IMG/VR virus record: IMGVR_UViG_3300030419_006744
Location: 5,590-32,113 of that record
Strand: one strand, 5' to 3'
Length of the DNA stretch: 26,524 bases
From: a virus
The notes under the pieces are model-generated. The model did not search any database. It worked only from the letters and a program-made list of their open reading frames with translations, and was not told where the DNA came from. Both the position numbers and the translations under genes were made by a program. Shown here in pieces: positions 2,691 to 15,041 of this stretch (its first letter is position 1; the number at the start of each line of letters is the position of its first letter).

Positions 2691-3656
2691 TTACTCAGTA
2701 AAGCAAACTCTGTTTAAACTCTGAAATAAACTCGACCAGTTGTAATCGACAAATCCGTCTTCGATCATCATTTTGCGAATAGCAGTCTTATTCAGACTTA
2801 GATCTTGATTTAAGACAGAATCACGTATGATCTGCTTTCCTGACACACTAATACTTGGTGCGTAAAGTTGCATCATTTTGTAATTTCGTTCAAAAATCTC
2901 TTGCTTGTCTAGCAAGTTCTCGTACACTTTTAGCTTTCGTTCAGATAACATTTCCTTGCTATGCTGTAAAACTTCTGTCATTGTGTATGACTTTTCTTCC
3001 TTTAAGAAAGGAAATCGCTTGGAAACAGTTGCCAATCCGCAACCGCCGATTCCTTCCAAATTATCACTTTTATCGCCAGCCATTGCGCGCGCGATTGTCA
3101 TGTTATTTGGATGAATCCCAAATTTATCAATTATCGAATTTTTATTAAGAAATTCTTTTTGTATAGGCCGGTACAAAACAGTCTCATTGTCGAGAAGCTG
3201 AAAAAAGTCTTTATCACTGGATACGATAAGTTTTTGATCCCCCTCTAAAGCCGGAAGGCGACACGCATATGCAATCGCATCGTCTGCCTCAATATCAGGA
3301 AGCATAACTTGTGACACGGGCATGTGGTTGAAGTAATCAATAAGCCTAGTCTGTTGCCAGATCTTATTTTGTATCTCCTCACTCTCGCTAAGATTGCGTA
3401 TATCCCTATTCAAACGTATCGGACGTCGATTTCCCTTATAATCCTTTTTAAGAGATCGTCTTTTTTTCGATCCGCCGGCGCCGTCCCAGCATATAACTAC
3501 TCGATCGGGCTTTGTTTCCCGAAGAAGCTTTTGCATTATCTTTAAAGTACCCTTAAGGCCACCAATTGGCTGACCGTTTTCAGACAAGGACGGATCAACA
3601 ATATATGCACGAAAAAACATATTTAATTGATCTATTATTAGTATTCTCTTCGACAA
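2691..3656 (-). CDS. rnh: 5'-3' exonuclease / flap endonuclease (RNase H-like, T4 Rnh family)
   Basis: A FEN-superfamily nuclease of 321 residues (T4 RNase H is about 305) that would remove RNA primers and 5' flaps from lagging-strand fragments. The acidic metal ligands are in the expected places: D9 in LIIDQLN, D58 in ICWDGAG, E123/D125/D126 in DIEADDA, D148/D150 in SSDKDF, and D195/D198 in AGDKSDN. A helix-hairpin-helix-like segment GIGGCG follows at about 202-207. The start is most likely TTG (3654-3656): an in-frame stop lies just upstream, the next ATG would remove D9, and AGAGG/AAAGG sits before it. It follows the small 111-residue gene with only 10 nt between them. Confidence 0.88.
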   Translation of the reverse strand: MSKRILIIDQLNMFFRAYIVDPSLSENGQPIGGLKGTLKIMQKLLRETKPDRVVICWDGAGGSKKRRSLKKDYKGNRRPIRLNRDIRNLSESEEIQNKIWQQTRLIDYFNHMPVSQVMLPDIEADDAIAYACRLPALEGDQKLIVSSDKDFFQLLDNETVLYRPIQKEFLNKNSIIDKFGIHPNNMTIARAMAGDKSDNLEGIGGCGLATVSKRFPFLKEEKSYTMTEVLQHSKEMLSERKLKVYENLLDKQEIFERNYKMMQLYAPSISVSGKQIIRDSVLNQDLSLNKTAIRKMMIEDGFVDYNWSSLFQSLNRVCFTE

Positions 3657-3666
3657 CCTTTACCTC

Positions 3667-4002
3667 TCATCGCGTGTAGACGGCGCGCTTATCGATATCA
3701 AGCACTTTCTTGATCTCGAAATTTAACACCCCGTCGACTGATATAACTCTCTTTGACAAAGCATCTTTATATTGAGCCCAGTTTTGATTAGCACCAATAA
3801 CAAATTTAAGCTTAAGCAGGCTTTGCTCATGGTTTTCACTAATCGGCACTGCGGCCTCTGTCAGCGTAACTGTAGTTACACCTTCGATCTTTCTAATCAA
3901 AGTCAAAATATCAGTGAGGTTTTTATCACGCAACGAAGTTAAAACACTCATTGCCTGGAAAACCAAATCATCAACTTTGATTTCATTTAAATTGTTGTTC
4001 AT
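3667..4002 (-). CDS. Small protein of unknown function, possible ferredoxin-like fold
   Basis: 111 residues, not recognised. From residue 30 on, the order helix, strand (GVTTVTLTEA), strand (LLKLKFVIG), helix (NWAQYKDALSKRV), strand (VLNFEIKKV) suggests a small ferredoxin-like alpha/beta domain. This is read by eye only. There is no Cys and no membrane segment. The ATG has a very strong GAGGAGGAG Shine-Dalgarno. Two copies of the ACTATTTA motif lie in the 81-nt gap between the uvsX stop and this start, the nearer one 18 nt from the ATG. The gene may therefore start its own transcript, although it sits in the recombination/replication cluster (uvsX, rnh, helicase). Confidence 0.75.
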   Translation of the reverse strand: MNNNLNEIKVDDLVFQAMSVLTSLRDKNLTDILTLIRKIEGVTTVTLTEAAVPISENHEQSLLKLKFVIGANQNWAQYKDALSKRVISVDGVLNFEIKKVLDIDKRAVYTR

Positions 4003-4083: not shown

Positions 4084-5199
4084 TCAAGCTTCAGCATCAA
4101 CATCATAGAAGCTACCAGCATCAGTAGAGCGATCATCAAATTTTAAGATGACTTCTTCGTCTATAAGCTGCAATATACGCGTTCTAAACTTCTCGTCTTC
4201 TAGCTTCTCCAGCCATCGAGAAGATTGGAATTTCTCTTCTGATCCATCTTCGTGTGTCAAGGTGTACCAAGCTCCAGCAGACTTAATATGTTTGGAGCTT
4301 TTAATAGCATCAAACCAGCTTTCTTTGTCCTGCACCCCGATTTCGCCACCCCACAGAATTTTAAAAGAACACTGTCGGCCTTGAGTACCAAATCGGCTTT
4401 TCTTTAGTGTGCATTTAACTTCTGATCCAATTCTATAACCATGTTCGTCCTGAATAAACGATGCTTTGGCCTTCCTTCCAGTCAGCCAGATCCTTAGTGA
4501 ATATGCATAGTGCATGGCCTTTCCACCTGGAGTAACGTATGGAGTTGTCATGGCTTCAGCAACGTTACTTGTAATATTAGTTTTTAACTGATTAAGGACA
4601 ACAAAAGTAGACTTACTGTTCGCGATGGGCACCGTTAATTTAGACATACCTTTAGCTAAAATTCGAGCCTTTACTGCCATAGAAGATTGTGGATTAAAAT
4701 CACCTTCAATGTCAGAAACTGCCGGCGTTAGGGCTAAACTATCCCAGATGAAAAGCATCTGGCCTTCGTTAGAGCCAAGCAATTCTTCAATTGTCTCCAA
4801 AACAAATTCAACACTTTGTGCCTGAACATATAGTAAGCGGCTCAAATCACATCCAGCTTTCTCTAGAAAACCTGGATCAATAGCGGACTCAGAATCAAAA
4901 TAAACAACGTCAATATCCATCTTTTGCGCATTGGCTGCAATCTGCGCTGCCATATAGGACTTCCCAGCGCTTTCCAAGCCGGCAAGCTCCGTAACTTTTC
5001 CCACTGGAATTCCGGCGAGTTTTCCCCGGCATATCATACTATCTAGCCATCGAGATCCGGTAGGAATCCATTGCTTAACTTCCGTTGGGTTCTCGCCAGT
5101 TAGATCATGAGCGAGTTGAACTCCAGCCTTTTTATTGATAAGCTTTTTCATCTCTTCAATATTCAATTTGCCTATTTTTCTGTTTTTTGATGCAGCCAT
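4084..5199 (-). CDS. uvsX: RecA/UvsX-like recombinase
   Basis: A strand-exchange recombinase for recombination-dependent replication and repair; it would form filaments on single-stranded DNA alongside the gp32-like protein. The 371 residues compare with about 390 for T4 UvsX. The RecA core shows Walker A GLESAGKS (74-81), the catalytic Glu in FDSESAID (E104) and Walker B MLFIWDSLAL (148-157), followed by the L1/L2 DNA-binding region around residues 190-230. The C-terminus is acidic (DDRSTDAGSFYDVDAEA), a common autoregulatory feature of RecA proteins. The ATG at 5199 has AGGA upstream and lies 20 nt after the CCA end of the tRNA gene, so tRNA and uvsX may share a transcript. Confidence 0.93.
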   Translation of the reverse strand: MAASKNRKIGKLNIEEMKKLINKKAGVQLAHDLTGENPTEVKQWIPTGSRWLDSMICRGKLAGIPVGKVTELAGLESAGKSYMAAQIAANAQKMDIDVVYFDSESAIDPGFLEKAGCDLSRLLYVQAQSVEFVLETIEELLGSNEGQMLFIWDSLALTPAVSDIEGDFNPQSSMAVKARILAKGMSKLTVPIANSKSTFVVLNQLKTNITSNVAEAMTTPYVTPGGKAMHYAYSLRIWLTGRKAKASFIQDEHGYRIGSEVKCTLKKSRFGTQGRQCSFKILWGGEIGVQDKESWFDAIKSSKHIKSAGAWYTLTHEDGSEEKFQSSRWLEKLEDEKFRTRILQLIDEEVILKFDDRSTDAGSFYDVDAEA

Positions 5200-5350: not shown

Positions 5351-6097
5351 TTACCCAAGAAGTTCTTGGAACGCCTGATCAACAGTACTCGTCTCCGACG
5401 AGCTGTTGGTATACTTGGAAGCTTCGGAGGAAACTTCATCGGCATCAGAGTCACCAAGTAAATACTCATCGAGCATCCCTTGAACTTGCTCTGGGGTCTT
5501 TCGTTCGAAAACGCTAGCAAAATCAGGTACCTGATCGAGTACCTGGGCAACCTTCTCATCAGACTCCATAAGACGCGTGGGGCGGCGTCGTGGAGTGAGT
5601 GACGTCTGAGGAAACTGCGCTCCTGGAGGCTTGCCATATGTCAATACCAAGTCAGTACCCTCTTCAACATCAGTGATGTCGCCATAGTCAGGATTCAGAA
5701 CAAGGTTCAAAAGCTCCTGATAAGCAGTTTTGCCAAAGCCCCACAAGCGTACGCCTTCGGCTTCCTCGCCACGGACAATCACCGGTGCGAAGAAACGCTG
5801 ACGTGCCATGAGATTCTTGGCCATCTTGATGCTGTCATCTGTCCCCTCTTTAAACAAGGAGCGGACAAACGTATCCAACGGATCGTCTTCGCCAAAATTC
5901 TTCTTTGGACTCAAAAATCCAGGATTGTTTCCAACATTGTAGTGGAACCAGTACTCCTTGAAGGGGTCACCGTCCGGGGTTGGAACAATACGAATTGTCT
6001 GCTCCCCGTCTTGAGGGCGCCAGAAGACGCTCTTCTTATCACTCTTTTGCTGGAGGGCTGTAAGCTTAGCCCTCATCTTATCCATATCAATACCCAT
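5351..6097 (-). CDS. 32: gp32-like single-stranded DNA-binding protein
   Basis: It coats single-stranded DNA during replication, recombination and repair. The 248 residues (T4 gp32 has 301) begin with a basic segment (residues 1-22) where T4 gp32 has its cooperativity domain. The OB-fold core follows, with VFWRPQDGEQTIRIVP (24-39) and the family's PFKEYWFHY (45-53). The C-terminal third is acidic and Ser/Asp-rich and ends QAFQELLG, like the acidic tail that contacts partner proteins. The protein has no cysteine, so the structural zinc site of T4 gp32 is absent. The ATG has an AAGGAG site. It is followed at once by a terminator. The 82-nt leader carries a small hairpin that could be regulatory. 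Confidence 0.88.
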   Translation of the reverse strand: MGIDMDKMRAKLTALQQKSDKKSVFWRPQDGEQTIRIVPTPDGDPFKEYWFHYNVGNNPGFLSPKKNFGEDDPLDTFVRSLFKEGTDDSIKMAKNLMARQRFFAPVIVRGEEAEGVRLWGFGKTAYQELLNLVLNPDYGDITDVEEGTDLVLTYGKPPGAQFPQTSLTPRRRPTRLMESDEKVAQVLDQVPDFASVFERKTPEQVQGMLDEYLLGDSDADEVSSEASKYTNSSSETSTVDQAFQELLG

Positions 6098-6179: not shown

Positions 6180-7034
6180 TTAAACATTAATATCGTTTTT
6201 TTCACTTTGTATCATTGTAGTGTGTGTAAGGGAATACACATAATCTTCATCGTAGTCTGTTGCAAAAATCCCATACGAAGCCTTCACTAGACCACCGTCC
6301 GTCCTGTCTCTAACCTGCTGGGTTATCAACTTCAACAAGCCGCCATCTTCTTCAAGCTTCTTTCTGTTTAATGCATAATAGTATACCCTTTCTCTAGGTA
6401 AATTTAAATCAAAAAACAGTTTTTCTTCCGCATTTCTTATATCCATTACTCCGAACGTGGCAATACGTGCGGCAGTCATCGGACGAGAAAAAGTATTCAT
6501 TATCGATCGCGAATTCTTGAATATATTAACCATGTGAATAGTGTGAACAATCAAATTGTTAATCTTATCATGATAGCCAATAACCGGGATGTCGCCCAAT
6601 ATATCTTCGATCTTAGAATTATCAACGAGATATATCTTGCTTATAGCTGCAGATCTGGCATATTCCTGCAGAATGCCAAAAACAACTCTTTCCTGAAGAC
6701 GCTTGACTTCAGACAGCAACTCTGTCTCTGGCCTCACATACAGCACGCTAACATCTAAATGAGATAGCTGCTGCAAAACTCGCAGGGCTGCTCCAGAAAT
6801 TGTACCTGATCCGCCGAGAACCAATAAGCATGAAGTCTGTATGTTGCTAAAAAATTGTTTAAAATCTGGACAATTTTTTTCATACATCTCATGACTTTCT
6901 TGTTCAGGTAATAGAAACACATCTTCGCCGCTCCTCTCATCAGTATCAATTCGATATACTGTGTATTGAGGATAGCGCATGAATTTCTCAGCAATATTAC
7001 AGCCAGCTGTACCTAAGCCAACTATGTTTTCCAT
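6180..7034 (-). CDS. Divergent tubulin/FtsZ-superfamily GTPase-like protein
   Basis: 284 residues. The N-terminus reads IVGLGTAGCNIAEKF (4-18), the Rossmann-like first loop of FtsZ/tubulin. At 74-81 GGSGTISG occupies the place of the tubulin/FtsZ signature GGGTGTG. About 60 residues on, IYLVDNSKIEDIL (134-146) matches the FtsZ strand-loop containing the base-contacting Asn (here N139), and a long helix (159-181) follows in the position of H7. A clear catalytic T7 loop (N-x-D-x-x-D) is not visible, so GTP may be bound but poorly hydrolysed. If this is right, the protein could polymerise and act in DNA or capsid positioning, as phage PhuZ and TubZ do. It sits 12 nt after the Cys-rich gene and 82 nt before gp32. 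The ATG has AGAGG. A Rossmann-type nucleotide-binding protein is the main alternative. Confidence 0.6.
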   Translation of the reverse strand: MENIVGLGTAGCNIAEKFMRYPQYTVYRIDTDERSGEDVFLLPEQESHEMYEKNCPDFKQFFSNIQTSCLLVLGGSGTISGAALRVLQQLSHLDVSVLYVRPETELLSEVKRLQERVVFGILQEYARSAAISKIYLVDNSKIEDILGDIPVIGYHDKINNLIVHTIHMVNIFKNSRSIMNTFSRPMTAARIATFGVMDIRNAEEKLFFDLNLPRERVYYYALNRKKLEEDGGLLKLITQQVRDRTDGGLVKASYGIFATDYDEDYVYSLTHTTMIQSEKNDINV

Positions 7035-7046
7035 GTTGCCTCTTTC

Positions 7047-7193
7047 TTACTTCGTGGTCTTTTTACGAGGCCGGCCCCGGCGTCGAGCTACATTACAGGC
7101 TCCCTTGCAGCCCTCGCATGAGCAGCAGCCGCAGCAGCAGCAGCAATGTGATGAATTAAAAAGATTTCCTAATCTATGCAAAAATAGTCGCAT
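7047..7193 (-). CDS. 48-residue Cys-rich protein with AT-hook-like basic tail
   Basis: A short gene. It starts at ATG 7191-7193 with a near-perfect AGGAGG ten nt upstream and ends at TAA 7047-7049. After a 16-residue N-terminus (MRLFLHRLGNLFNSSH) come ten cysteines within 17 residues: CCCCCGCCSC (17-26), then EGC (29) and KGAC (33). The tail is basic, with RRRGRPRKK (37-45) containing the GRP core of an AT-hook. The Cys block could bind zinc or another metal as in metallothionein-like proteins, and the tail could sit in the minor groove of AT-rich DNA; both roles are inferred from composition. It directly precedes the tubulin-like gene (12 nt) and follows an ACTATTTA motif, so it is probably translated. 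I recognise no family. Confidence 0.75.
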   Translation of the reverse strand: MRLFLHRLGNLFNSSHCCCCCGCCSCEGCKGACNVARRRGRPRKKTTK

Positions 7194-7229: not shown

Positions 7230-8411
7230 TTAAAGATTTAATTTCTTCATTTCTCTGAAATTTTTACCGGCGCTGACATTTACCTTAAAATCTCCCAGAC
7301 TACTGCTTCCAAATGCCTTAATAATATCTAATAACTTGTCTTTATCTTCTTCTTTGAAGTCTAAAACCACGCTATCATGGATACAAAAAGCTACAAAAGT
7401 ATCTAGATCAGATATGCTCTTGTTCAGCTGTATTAATTTTCTTAAGAAGAAGTCACTAGTTGTGCTTTGAATCAAGTAGTTTAGAGCATGATATTCATCG
7501 CTCTCTATGACCCTTTTAAAGGGGGTGGTTACCGCGCCATTGTTATGGTATTTTTTAAGAATTCTGTTTTTTGGAAATAATTTATCCAAAGCGTAGTTTT
7601 TCGCCATTGGATTATAGAGCCAAGAAAAAACTCGTTTTTTAGTCTCATCCCTGCTAAACTTGCCTCTAAACAGCTCCTTGTTTATGTAGGAGTGGATATC
7701 GCCTTCAGGCTGTTCAAGGCCTAGAAGGGCCCAAAAAACCCTCAATTCAGCTGCATTAAAATCTAGCTCTACAAACCAATCATTTTTAGGCTTTAAGATT
7801 TTTCGATATTCACGGTTAAAGGTTAGAACTGGAAAACTATTCTTAGTGGTGGTCAAACGTCCAGTTTTTGTGCCGAAAATATCATACTCTACATAAGGCA
7901 CTGACGTGGCTTGGCGTCGATAAAACTCCCTAGCTTTGATGCTACCTAGATCCAACTCTGTCAGATCAATATTTAAAGTTTGGTTTTTTATTTGATCAGT
8001 TAATTTTGTTAATTCAACCAAAAAATCATAATTCTCAGGCCTCTTGTAAGAAGAAAAAATATGCTCACATATTTTATCTTTAAGATAACAGTATTCTAAC
8101 AAAAACCTTTCTGGAACCAAATCATAAAAACAATTGTCTCTCAAAGAAATCTTGGCCGTGTTGAAGGAAATCATAAATGATTTAAGCTTGTTGTTAACGG
8201 CCTCCCATTCGTGTTTATACTCATCCGGACAAATCTTACCTAGATCAACATTCGAACAATATAAATTAGCATATTCTATATCTAAATCAGATAGATATGA
8301 TCCATAGCACCACGTCTTAGTAAGATCTATCGGCAAACTATCATAATGGATCTGGCCGTCGACATATACACCAACACATTCATTTTTGTCGTCTAAAGTT
8401 TGAAACAGCAT
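7230..8411 (-). CDS. Family A DNA polymerase, polymerase domain only
   Basis: A template-directed DNA polymerase of the Pol I/T7 family. Visible motifs: GTKTGRLTT (180-188); motif A VELDFNAAELRVF (214-226) with catalytic D217 and E222; motif B R254-x3-K258-x3-F262-x3-Y266; NYLIQSTTSDF (311-321); and motif C IHDSVVLDF (344-352) with catalytic D346. At 393 residues it is much shorter than Pol I or T7 polymerase, and no DxE-type 3'-5' exonuclease motifs are visible in the first 170 residues. Motif C reads HDS instead of the usual HDE. The ATG at 8411 has no clear Shine-Dalgarno and follows the upstream structural gene by 33 nt. Proofreading would have to come from another gene, or this may be a repair polymerase beside a second replicase outside the window. 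Confidence 0.9.
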   Translation of the reverse strand: MLFQTLDDKNECVGVYVDGQIHYDSLPIDLTKTWCYGSYLSDLDIEYANLYCSNVDLGKICPDEYKHEWEAVNNKLKSFMISFNTAKISLRDNCFYDLVPERFLLEYCYLKDKICEHIFSSYKRPENYDFLVELTKLTDQIKNQTLNIDLTELDLGSIKAREFYRRQATSVPYVEYDIFGTKTGRLTTTKNSFPVLTFNREYRKILKPKNDWFVELDFNAAELRVFWALLGLEQPEGDIHSYINKELFRGKFSRDETKKRVFSWLYNPMAKNYALDKLFPKNRILKKYHNNGAVTTPFKRVIESDEYHALNYLIQSTTSDFFLRKLIQLNKSISDLDTFVAFCIHDSVVLDFKEEDKDKLLDIIKAFGSSSLGDFKVNVSAGKNFREMKKLNL

Positions 8412-13517: not shown

Positions 13518-15041
13518 TTAGAGGAGCATCTTGTTGTGGACCAAGACGCCATCTGCAAAATAGTTTCTGTTATCTGAAACAGTAAAGTTGTATGTAGGTA
13601 TATCACCAGTTACGATTTCGTTGATTTCTGTTAGTGTTATTGTATCTCCACTATCAGTAATACATCTATCCCCCACTTCAATCAAACATGTGCCTTCAAG
13701 ATCTGTAGTCTTATAACGCGCAATGGTTAGATCAGGTTTATACGATGTCCATCCTTTCCCAACTACATAGTATGGGTGATCGTACGTATGTTGAGTTTTA
13801 ACGCCATTCGAGAACACAAACTCAACGATATCGCTATGCAATGGTTGCATCAACTCAAGAACAGACTTGGCCTCAGTTTCTTGAGTTTCTAAATTATAAG
13901 AGACAACCAAGTCACCAGCTTTTATATCTTCAATCTTAATGCTTTCTATCGTATTGTCAGGCCCGGGAACGCTGATCATTGTACCAGCAACAAAGCAAAC
14001 ACCCGCTGGAGCATCGCCGGTGGCTGCGCTTTCTTCACTGTTCTCTACGGCTTCATGCACTTCGCCGGCAGCATCTTGGCCGGCCACCTCTCCTCCGTCA
14101 CCAGCGGTCATTGCTTGATCCGCGCTACTGTCAGCTGCGGCGTTGTCGCCATCCCCATCTGCATCTGTTGGAGCACCTCCTCCGTCTGCGCCTTGCGCGC
14201 TGCCTCCAGCAGTATATGATTTCGACTTGGCATACGGAAAATTACTGAAACCGGAGCGAGGAGTGTGCGAAACAGTATATCCTAGCTCATGAGTATGCCA
14301 TACATGGAATGTTATATCCATACTAACTGATTGTGGATATATCTTGGCATGCTCTTCTAAAAGGTGGCCAGTGAAAACACCTTCATCCAAATTAGGGGTA
14401 TAGGTAATGCCAGCGATTCGCCCGGTGAGGCCTTGGGATTGTGCGCTGGGTGCTGGAGCACGGGATGAATCCTGTATTAGATTTGCTAACTTAAGCTTCC
14501 ACACTGGAGGAGATTGGATTATTCCCACGCTCGAACTCCACGATCCTGCCTTTACCGGTTCTATTTTATAAGTTGGATACAGACCTCGTATCAAAGCGGA
14601 GATCATTCTTTGATTTGCCCACGCTTCTTTGTTAGTTGCAGCCATAATATCAAAGCCCAAGTTGATAACTCTCTTTGTACCTTTAAATGTCTCGATCGGA
14701 TCCATTCTGCCATATACGTGTTCAGATGCCCACTCGGAAGAAAAGCTGTCATCAAATTTTGTCAGCCAGCAGCGAAAACGAATATTTGGGCTGTAAACAT
14801 TTCCGGCGTGTGTGTCGACCCGGGCATGCCTATCATGGTTGCCCCCAATATGTACAGGGTAGAACATAATATCATATTCCGGGCTGTATTGTTCGCCTCC
14901 AGAATAAAACTTATTTTGCGACACCCAGCGCCAGGAAGGAGAGTTTGGTGGATTACCAGGGCCTGCATCGCTTGTATCCGCGTCCTGCCACCAAGCTTTT
15001 GACCCCAATTCCGGCTCTTTTTCATCATCAAACCAAGACAT
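13518..15041 (-). CDS. Tail/baseplate protein with C-terminal Hint (intein-like) domain
   Basis: 507 residues in three parts. Residues 1-278 form a structural domain with a tail-tube-initiator-like segment (YGRMDPIETFKGTKRVINLG and the following helix ending GLYPTY). Residues 279-348 are a Gly/Ala/Asp-rich linker of low complexity. Residues 349-503 are a Hint domain: the N-terminal nucleophile is in CFVAGTMI (C349), then IEDIKAGDLVVSYN, block B as TYDHPYYV (T419, H422), and the C-terminal block NYFADGVLVHN with H502 and N503. Only KMLL follows. The +1 residue is Lys, not Cys/Ser/Thr, so normal splicing is unlikely; self-cleavage at either end remains possible. The arrangement resembles bacterial intein-like and toxin-associated HINT domains. 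The ATG has a strong CAGGAGG and ACTATTTA-like motifs upstream. Baseplate assignment is from context. Confidence 0.82.
   Translation of the reverse strand: MSWFDDEKEPELGSKAWWQDADTSDAGPGNPPNSPSWRWVSQNKFYSGGEQYSPEYDIMFYPVHIGGNHDRHARVDTHAGNVYSPNIRFRCWLTKFDDSFSSEWASEHVYGRMDPIETFKGTKRVINLGFDIMAATNKEAWANQRMISALIRGLYPTYKIEPVKAGSWSSSVGIIQSPPVWKLKLANLIQDSSRAPAPSAQSQGLTGRIAGITYTPNLDEGVFTGHLLEEHAKIYPQSVSMDITFHVWHTHELGYTVSHTPRSGFSNFPYAKSKSYTAGGSAQGADGGGAPTDADGDGDNAAADSSADQAMTAGDGGEVAGQDAAGEVHEAVENSEESAATGDAPAGVCFVAGTMISVPGPDNTIESIKIEDIKAGDLVVSYNLETQETEAKSVLELMQPLHSDIVEFVFSNGVKTQHTYDHPYYVVGKGWTSYKPDLTIARYKTTDLEGTCLIEVGDRCITDSGDTITLTEINEIVTGDIPTYNFTVSDNRNYFADGVLVHNKMLL

Follow-up and report, generated by a model that had tools for sequence, protein, structure and literature searches.

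A reduced protein of predicted tubulin fold encoded among the replication genes of probable marine Far-T4 phages

What would a tubulin-like protein be doing among the replication genes of a T4-type phage? The phage tubulins known so far, PhuZ and TubZ, form dynamic filaments, either in jumbo phages or as part of a partition system. The question arises from a stretch of 26,524 nucleotides (the window) that belongs to a 32-kb virus record and in which an open reading frame at 6180-7034 on the minus strand encodes a protein of 284 amino acids, here called TUB; its start codon is ATG and is preceded by AGAGG. An earlier note had read the product as a divergent tubulin/FtsZ-like protein because three motifs, GLGTAGCN (residues 6-13), GGSGTISG (74-81), and VDNSKI (137-142), were placed as in FtsZ and tubulin, and had set it in a replication cluster beside the single-strand DNA-binding protein gp32.

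Relatives of TUB are encoded in at least 564 stretches of IMG/VR, a count that still includes redundancy, and the loci first fetched yielded 92 distinct homologues with 28 to 57% identity to the window protein. Close pairs have dN/dS values of 0.03 to 0.08, so the gene is under strong purifying selection; the same values rule out a chance open reading frame at 6180-7034. Pfam, PHROGs, and searches by sequence all fail to recognize the family. The window protein has no significant match in Pfam, PHROGs, or the PDB sequences, nor by tblastn against 50,697 phage records, and for the tubulin/FtsZ family PF00091 it has no match above the gathering score; weak, below-threshold matches to PF00091 occur in 8 of 67 family members (best E 0.003). 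PHROG matches below 1e-3 are limited to a few members (phrog_29734, n = 5; phrog_24038, n = 1) and are inconsistent across the family, and the PDB-sequence matches to AF1502 and a bridge-like lipid transfer protein, with E of 0.3 to 0.5, were dismissed as noise. Among 84,980 genomes of bacteria and archaea, scanned by pattern, no relative was found.

The case for a tubulin-superfamily protein comes from the predicted structure. The AlphaFold2 model, built on an alignment of 25 family members that included sequences from a sub-clade with a degenerate T4 loop, reached a pLDDT of 91.4 and a pTM of 0.89, and contains a Rossmann-type GTP-binding domain, the core helix H7, and a second alpha/beta domain. 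Foldseek ranked FtsZ and TubZ at the top (E about 1e-13, query TM-score, TMq, about 0.73; E 8e-14 for FtsZ), and VIA-align gave Z scores of 25.2 for CetZ, 24.2 for TubZ (range 23-24), 23.1 for FtsZ, and 22 for tubulin over 261 to 281 aligned residues. Residues 1-284 of the model aligned to the superfamily, and the listed top structural matches all belong to it; among viral models, the best match was an uncultured-phage "FtsZ," followed by phage proteins annotated as cell-division or tubulin-like. The comparison with FtsZ and PhuZ that the earlier note had proposed thus recovered the tubulin two-domain arrangement, at the level of a predicted model, and gave no better match to another Rossmann-type family. 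For a member with a degenerate T4 loop (L015), a prediction from the single sequence without an alignment had a pLDDT of 41 and was uninformative about the fold of that sub-clade.

Profile comparison, another check proposed there, pointed the same way with less force. The TUB profile matched PhuZ with an hhalign E of 3e-5 from T1 to T4, and its match to FtsZ, weak by itself (E 0.027, probability 2%), was collinear for T1, T4, T6, and H7 over 162 columns; FtsZ against PhuZ gave 1.5e-8. Unrelated controls scored 0.16 and 0.48, with no unrelated Rossmann family among them, and it is therefore the fold comparison that carries the tubulin assignment. The short motifs do not carry it either, since family members have a degenerate T4 signature. 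With these grounds, we take TUB to have the two-domain fold of the tubulin/FtsZ superfamily, as modeled.

We mapped the kept and lost elements on the model and counted residue conservation among 67 family members. The glycine loop T1 (GLGTAGCN, residues 6-13; 6996-7019, minus strand, as for all window features below) is well kept, with G6 in 66, G8 in 67, and G11 in 61 members. Strand S5 and loop T6 (IYLVDN; 6618-6635) hold Asn139, an asparagine in 66/67 that hhalign aligns to the N165 region of FtsZ, and the core helix H7 (residues 154-173; 6516-6575), a helix by DSSP, holds an aromatic residue or histidine at 155 and Asn159, each in 67/67. By alignment, we take Asn139, the aromatic/His 155, and Asn159 to be N206, Y224, and N228 of tubulin. 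The parts of a guanine site are thus present: a glycine-rich T1, the asparagine of T6, and the asparagine of H7 with its aromatic or histidine partner. The most conserved motif of the family, QEYARS at the end of H5 (residues 123-128; 6651-6668; R127 and S128 in 67/67, Q123 in 66/67), and E52 in the T3 region, with E49 nearly as constant, are new invariants of TUB.

The motif reading of the earlier note held in part: all three motifs are present, and T1 and T6 are kept, but GGSGTISG, at the position of the T4 loop (residues 74-81; 6792-6815), is not conserved. The canonical signature GGG[TS]G[TS]G occurs in 0/67 members; the window has GSGTISG and a sub-clade has GSSYSSN or GASYSSN. That note had also seen no catalytic T7 loop in the window protein, and we found the absence to extend across the family. 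The equivalent of T7 and H8 (residues 174-190; 6465-6515) is coil with a two-residue strand by DSSP, and the NxDxxD acids, invariant as D209 and D212 in FtsZ and as D201 and D204 in PhuZ, have no conserved counterpart there (best acidic column 47/67). No H8 helix is predicted between H7 and the next strand, H2 is shrunk to six residues with H2/T3 reduced, and the modeled chain stops after the last strand and a short disordered tail, with no H11. Judged by its motifs, TUB would not pass for a canonical tubulin/FtsZ GTPase for all its predicted tubulin fold.

The placement in a replication cluster proved to be a property of the whole phage group. Upstream of TUB lies a family-A DNA polymerase, PolA, of 393 amino acids (7230-8411; PF00476 E 3e-13, phrog_17 E 3e-14), and the next gene downstream encodes the gp32-like protein (5351-6097; phrog_1192 E 8e-24), an adjacency that is conserved. 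The operon goes on with a UvsX/RecA recombinase (4084-5199; phrog_97 E 4e-57), a 5'-3' exonuclease (2691-3656; PF02739 E 1e-27), and a DnaB-like replicative helicase (1292-2650; phrog_19 E 1e-73, PF03796 E 3e-22). Where the contig is long enough, loci retrieved with TUB as bait share the order PolA, TUB, gp32, UvsX, sometimes p111, 5'-3' exonuclease, DnaB, and RNR, with inserted genes sometimes present; at 73 of 103 loci the reading frame of TUB overlaps the stop codon of PolA, the commonest overlap being 4 bases. With gp32 as a separate bait, in a set that shares some contigs with the former, 77 loci extended far enough upstream, and TUB was present at 76 of them (58/59 and 18/18); at the sole exception (L160) a gene cassette is inserted and the contig then ends. 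TUB co-diverges with both neighbors: distances among its sequences correlate with those of PolA at rho 0.78 and with those of gp32 at rho 0.66 (p 0.001). TUB is a core gene, near-universal in the phage group, between PolA and gp32.

Several smaller observations concern the same region. The window PolA consists of the polymerase domain with no recognizable proofreading domain, and a 3'-5' exonuclease is either elsewhere in the genome or missing. Between PolA and TUB, an unlisted 48-amino-acid open reading frame (7047-7193, minus strand) with a strong AGGAGG site encodes a poly-Cys stretch followed by the AT-hook-like RRRGRPRKK, and was not found in the PolA-TUB gaps of other loci. In some of those gaps (L001, L040, L041, L062, L072, L074, L113, and L115), small proteins starting MKITK..LK.II.EE(V) recur, sometimes with a next protein starting M..MKLIMENWR; others appear by eye to hold a MazG-like gene (L047 and L069) or a cytidylyltransferase-like gene (L007). 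The p111 family (111 amino acids; window 3667-4002, minus strand), which has no Pfam and no significant PHROG match, is encoded at some of the loci, where it separates UvsX from the exonuclease. A scan for Bacteroidota-type promoters gave 2 matches against 0.55 expected and was uninformative, and the T4 late promoter TATAAATA was not enriched. Outside the operon, a tail-region protein (13518-15041, minus strand) carries a HINT/intein-like domain at its C-terminus (PF07591 E 3e-10) and ends in VHNKMLL, leaving almost no C-extein.

By major capsid protein, the closest cultured phages are Flavobacterium phage immuto (51% identity), Microcystis phage Mel-JY01 (46%), and Rhodothermus phage RM378 (40%). 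Each of the three scores higher than other T4-type phages and cyanophages do, and LR756508, a huge uncultured-phage record, is 52% identical. The Far-T4 phages have RM378 as their reference isolate (PMC4360716), and subsequent studies connect them with marine Bacteroidetes/Flavobacteriales (PMC7198788, PMC13037479). In immuto and LR756508, the operon is the same but the genes at the TUB site are unrelated, and Mel-JY01, which shares the operon, has there a 428-amino-acid protein without tubulin motifs; a tubulin at this site in the three was rejected, as the genes are not tubulin-like by sequence. Immuto and LR756508 also share a similar protein of 129 to 151 amino acids in the gap between PolA and gp32 (L242:1346-1801 and L244:3785-4174). 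As relatives share the operon and carry other genes at the site, TUB was either gained in the marine lineage or kept only there.

Our preferred reading, to which we give about even weight for and against, is that TUB is a nucleotide-binding, hydrolysis-defective scaffold or switch of tubulin fold at the replication complex and not a dynamic cytomotive filament. The protein would be made together with the replisome, that is, with polymerase, single-strand binding protein, recombinase, exonuclease, and helicase. The retained T1, T6 asparagine, and H7 asparagine with its aromatic partner would keep a guanine-type nucleotide site, and loss of the T7 acids, which activate hydrolysis in the neighboring subunit, would leave no GTP-driven dynamics; H2/T3, reduced in the model, and H8, missing from it, are elements of the canonical head-to-tail interface. 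TUB may then act as a static oligomer, not cycling GTP, that tethers replication proteins or DNA, or it may be a monomer that serves polymerase or gp32 as an adaptor. From the conserved site, the lost motifs, and the operon we thus infer nucleotide binding, the absence of GTP-driven dynamics, and a role in replication. Gene neighborhood is no proof of a physical or functional link, and the operon could also have fixed a protein for host takeover. No tubulin homologue was detected in immuto or LR756508, although both have the operon, which in general therefore does not need TUB. A stronger version, in which a hydrolysis-dead tubulin is an integral, near-universal replisome component of a major ocean-phage clade, as partner of the polymerase or single-strand binding protein or as scaffold of replication foci, we consider possible but rather doubtful. 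To our knowledge, no phage or cell has a tubulin fold as an integral part of its replisome.

The loss of elements also bears on whether TUB could be a filament-forming cytoskeleton in the manner of PhuZ or TubZ, positioning phage DNA or capsids through a re-invented interface. The full tubulin fold of the model and the residue conservation along H7 and where H5 ends are compatible with this, and the hydrolysis-dead PhuZ mutant D198A still forms filaments, and does so at every expression level that was tried (PMC10299810), so loss of the T7 acids does not exclude polymerization. Yet TUB lacks, besides these acids, H8 and the C-terminal H11 and tail, and its H2 is short; for PhuZ, the extended C-terminus is critical for polymerization (PMC3678025). 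Taken together, these missing or reduced elements of the model (H8, H2/T3, and the C-terminal tail) make a canonical dynamic protofilament less likely, and the gene sits in a replisome operon and not beside a DNA-binding adaptor or a shell gene. We judge a positioning filament unlikely.

The same trimmed, FtsZ-like fold, with one interface face predicted to be lost, would suit a decoy that binds host FtsZ by the retained face, caps or poisons its filaments, and stops division. The conserved QEYARS at the end of H5 could form that face, which canonical topology would place opposite the nucleotide. Anti-host genes, however, are usually small and variable, and TUB keeps a strict core position inside the replisome operon, overlaps the polymerase gene, and resembles FtsZ only remotely (hhalign E 0.027); a division blocker therefore seems to us improbable, though still a serious contender. 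Poorest in our estimate is reuse of the Rossmann/tubulin core outside tubulin biology, as an enzyme of nucleotide metabolism or nucleic acids or as a nucleotide-free structural adaptor. The phosphate loop T4 is degenerate in 67/67 members, strongly so in a sub-clade, and some members have weak scores against TrkA_N and other Rossmann models, which speaks for such reuse, but both tubulin domains are present, the listed top structural matches are all of the tubulin superfamily, and the guanine-contact positions are among the best conserved.

If the reading as a replication scaffold or switch is true, the reach of the tubulin fold extends to the replication of phage DNA, and TUB offers a test of whether a protein of this fold can scaffold replication, or act as a nucleotide switch, when it does not cycle GTP; the gene is also usable as a marker for this poorly known marine group. 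We found no paper combining "Far-T4" and "tubulin" in the literature searched, which leaves most subscription papers outside, and the main texts of the Far-T4 papers that we examined mention neither tubulin nor FtsZ.

Among known systems, FtsZ and CetZ resemble the TUB model over its whole two-domain length (Z 22-25), in T1, T6, and the base-binding positions of H7, and the FtsZ profile is collinear from T1 to H7. TUB differs from them in its 284 amino acids, its reduced H2/T3, the lack of H8, T7 acids, and GGGTGTG, the absence of a cell-division context, and an identity of 12 to 16%. PhuZ of Chimalliviridae is likewise a phage-encoded tubulin fold, with profile similarity only from T1 to T4, but it has T7 acids and a C-terminal H11 and tail and forms dynamic spindles, whereas TUB has neither the acids nor the H11 and tail and occurs in T4-type phages. 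PhuZ is also an accessory, present in 66% of nucleus-forming phages and dispensable (PMC10299810), and TUB is near-universal in its group and lies in a replisome operon. TubZ, the partition tubulin of plasmids and phages, matches in structure (Z 23-24); TUB is shorter, lacks H11, and is found in T4-type phages, and where the TubZRC cassette brings TubR and tubC, the neighbors of TUB are replication genes with no TubR-like cassette recognized. TUB is not PhuZ and probably not TubZ. The diverged family FtsZl1, judged by its authors to lack some filament elements (PMC2875224, Makarova and Koonin 2010), sets a precedent for divergent members of the superfamily that may not form filaments, but this cellular family lacks T6-H7, which is the best-kept part of TUB. 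The best viral structural match, A0A6J5RW92, an "FtsZ cell division GTPase" of an uncultured Caudovirales phage (TMq 0.80, 19% identity), has 452 amino acids against 284. TUB is a distinct, reduced tubulin family, one for which we found no description in the searchable literature, and it belongs to the core genes of a group of ocean phages that is abundant and for the most part uncultured.
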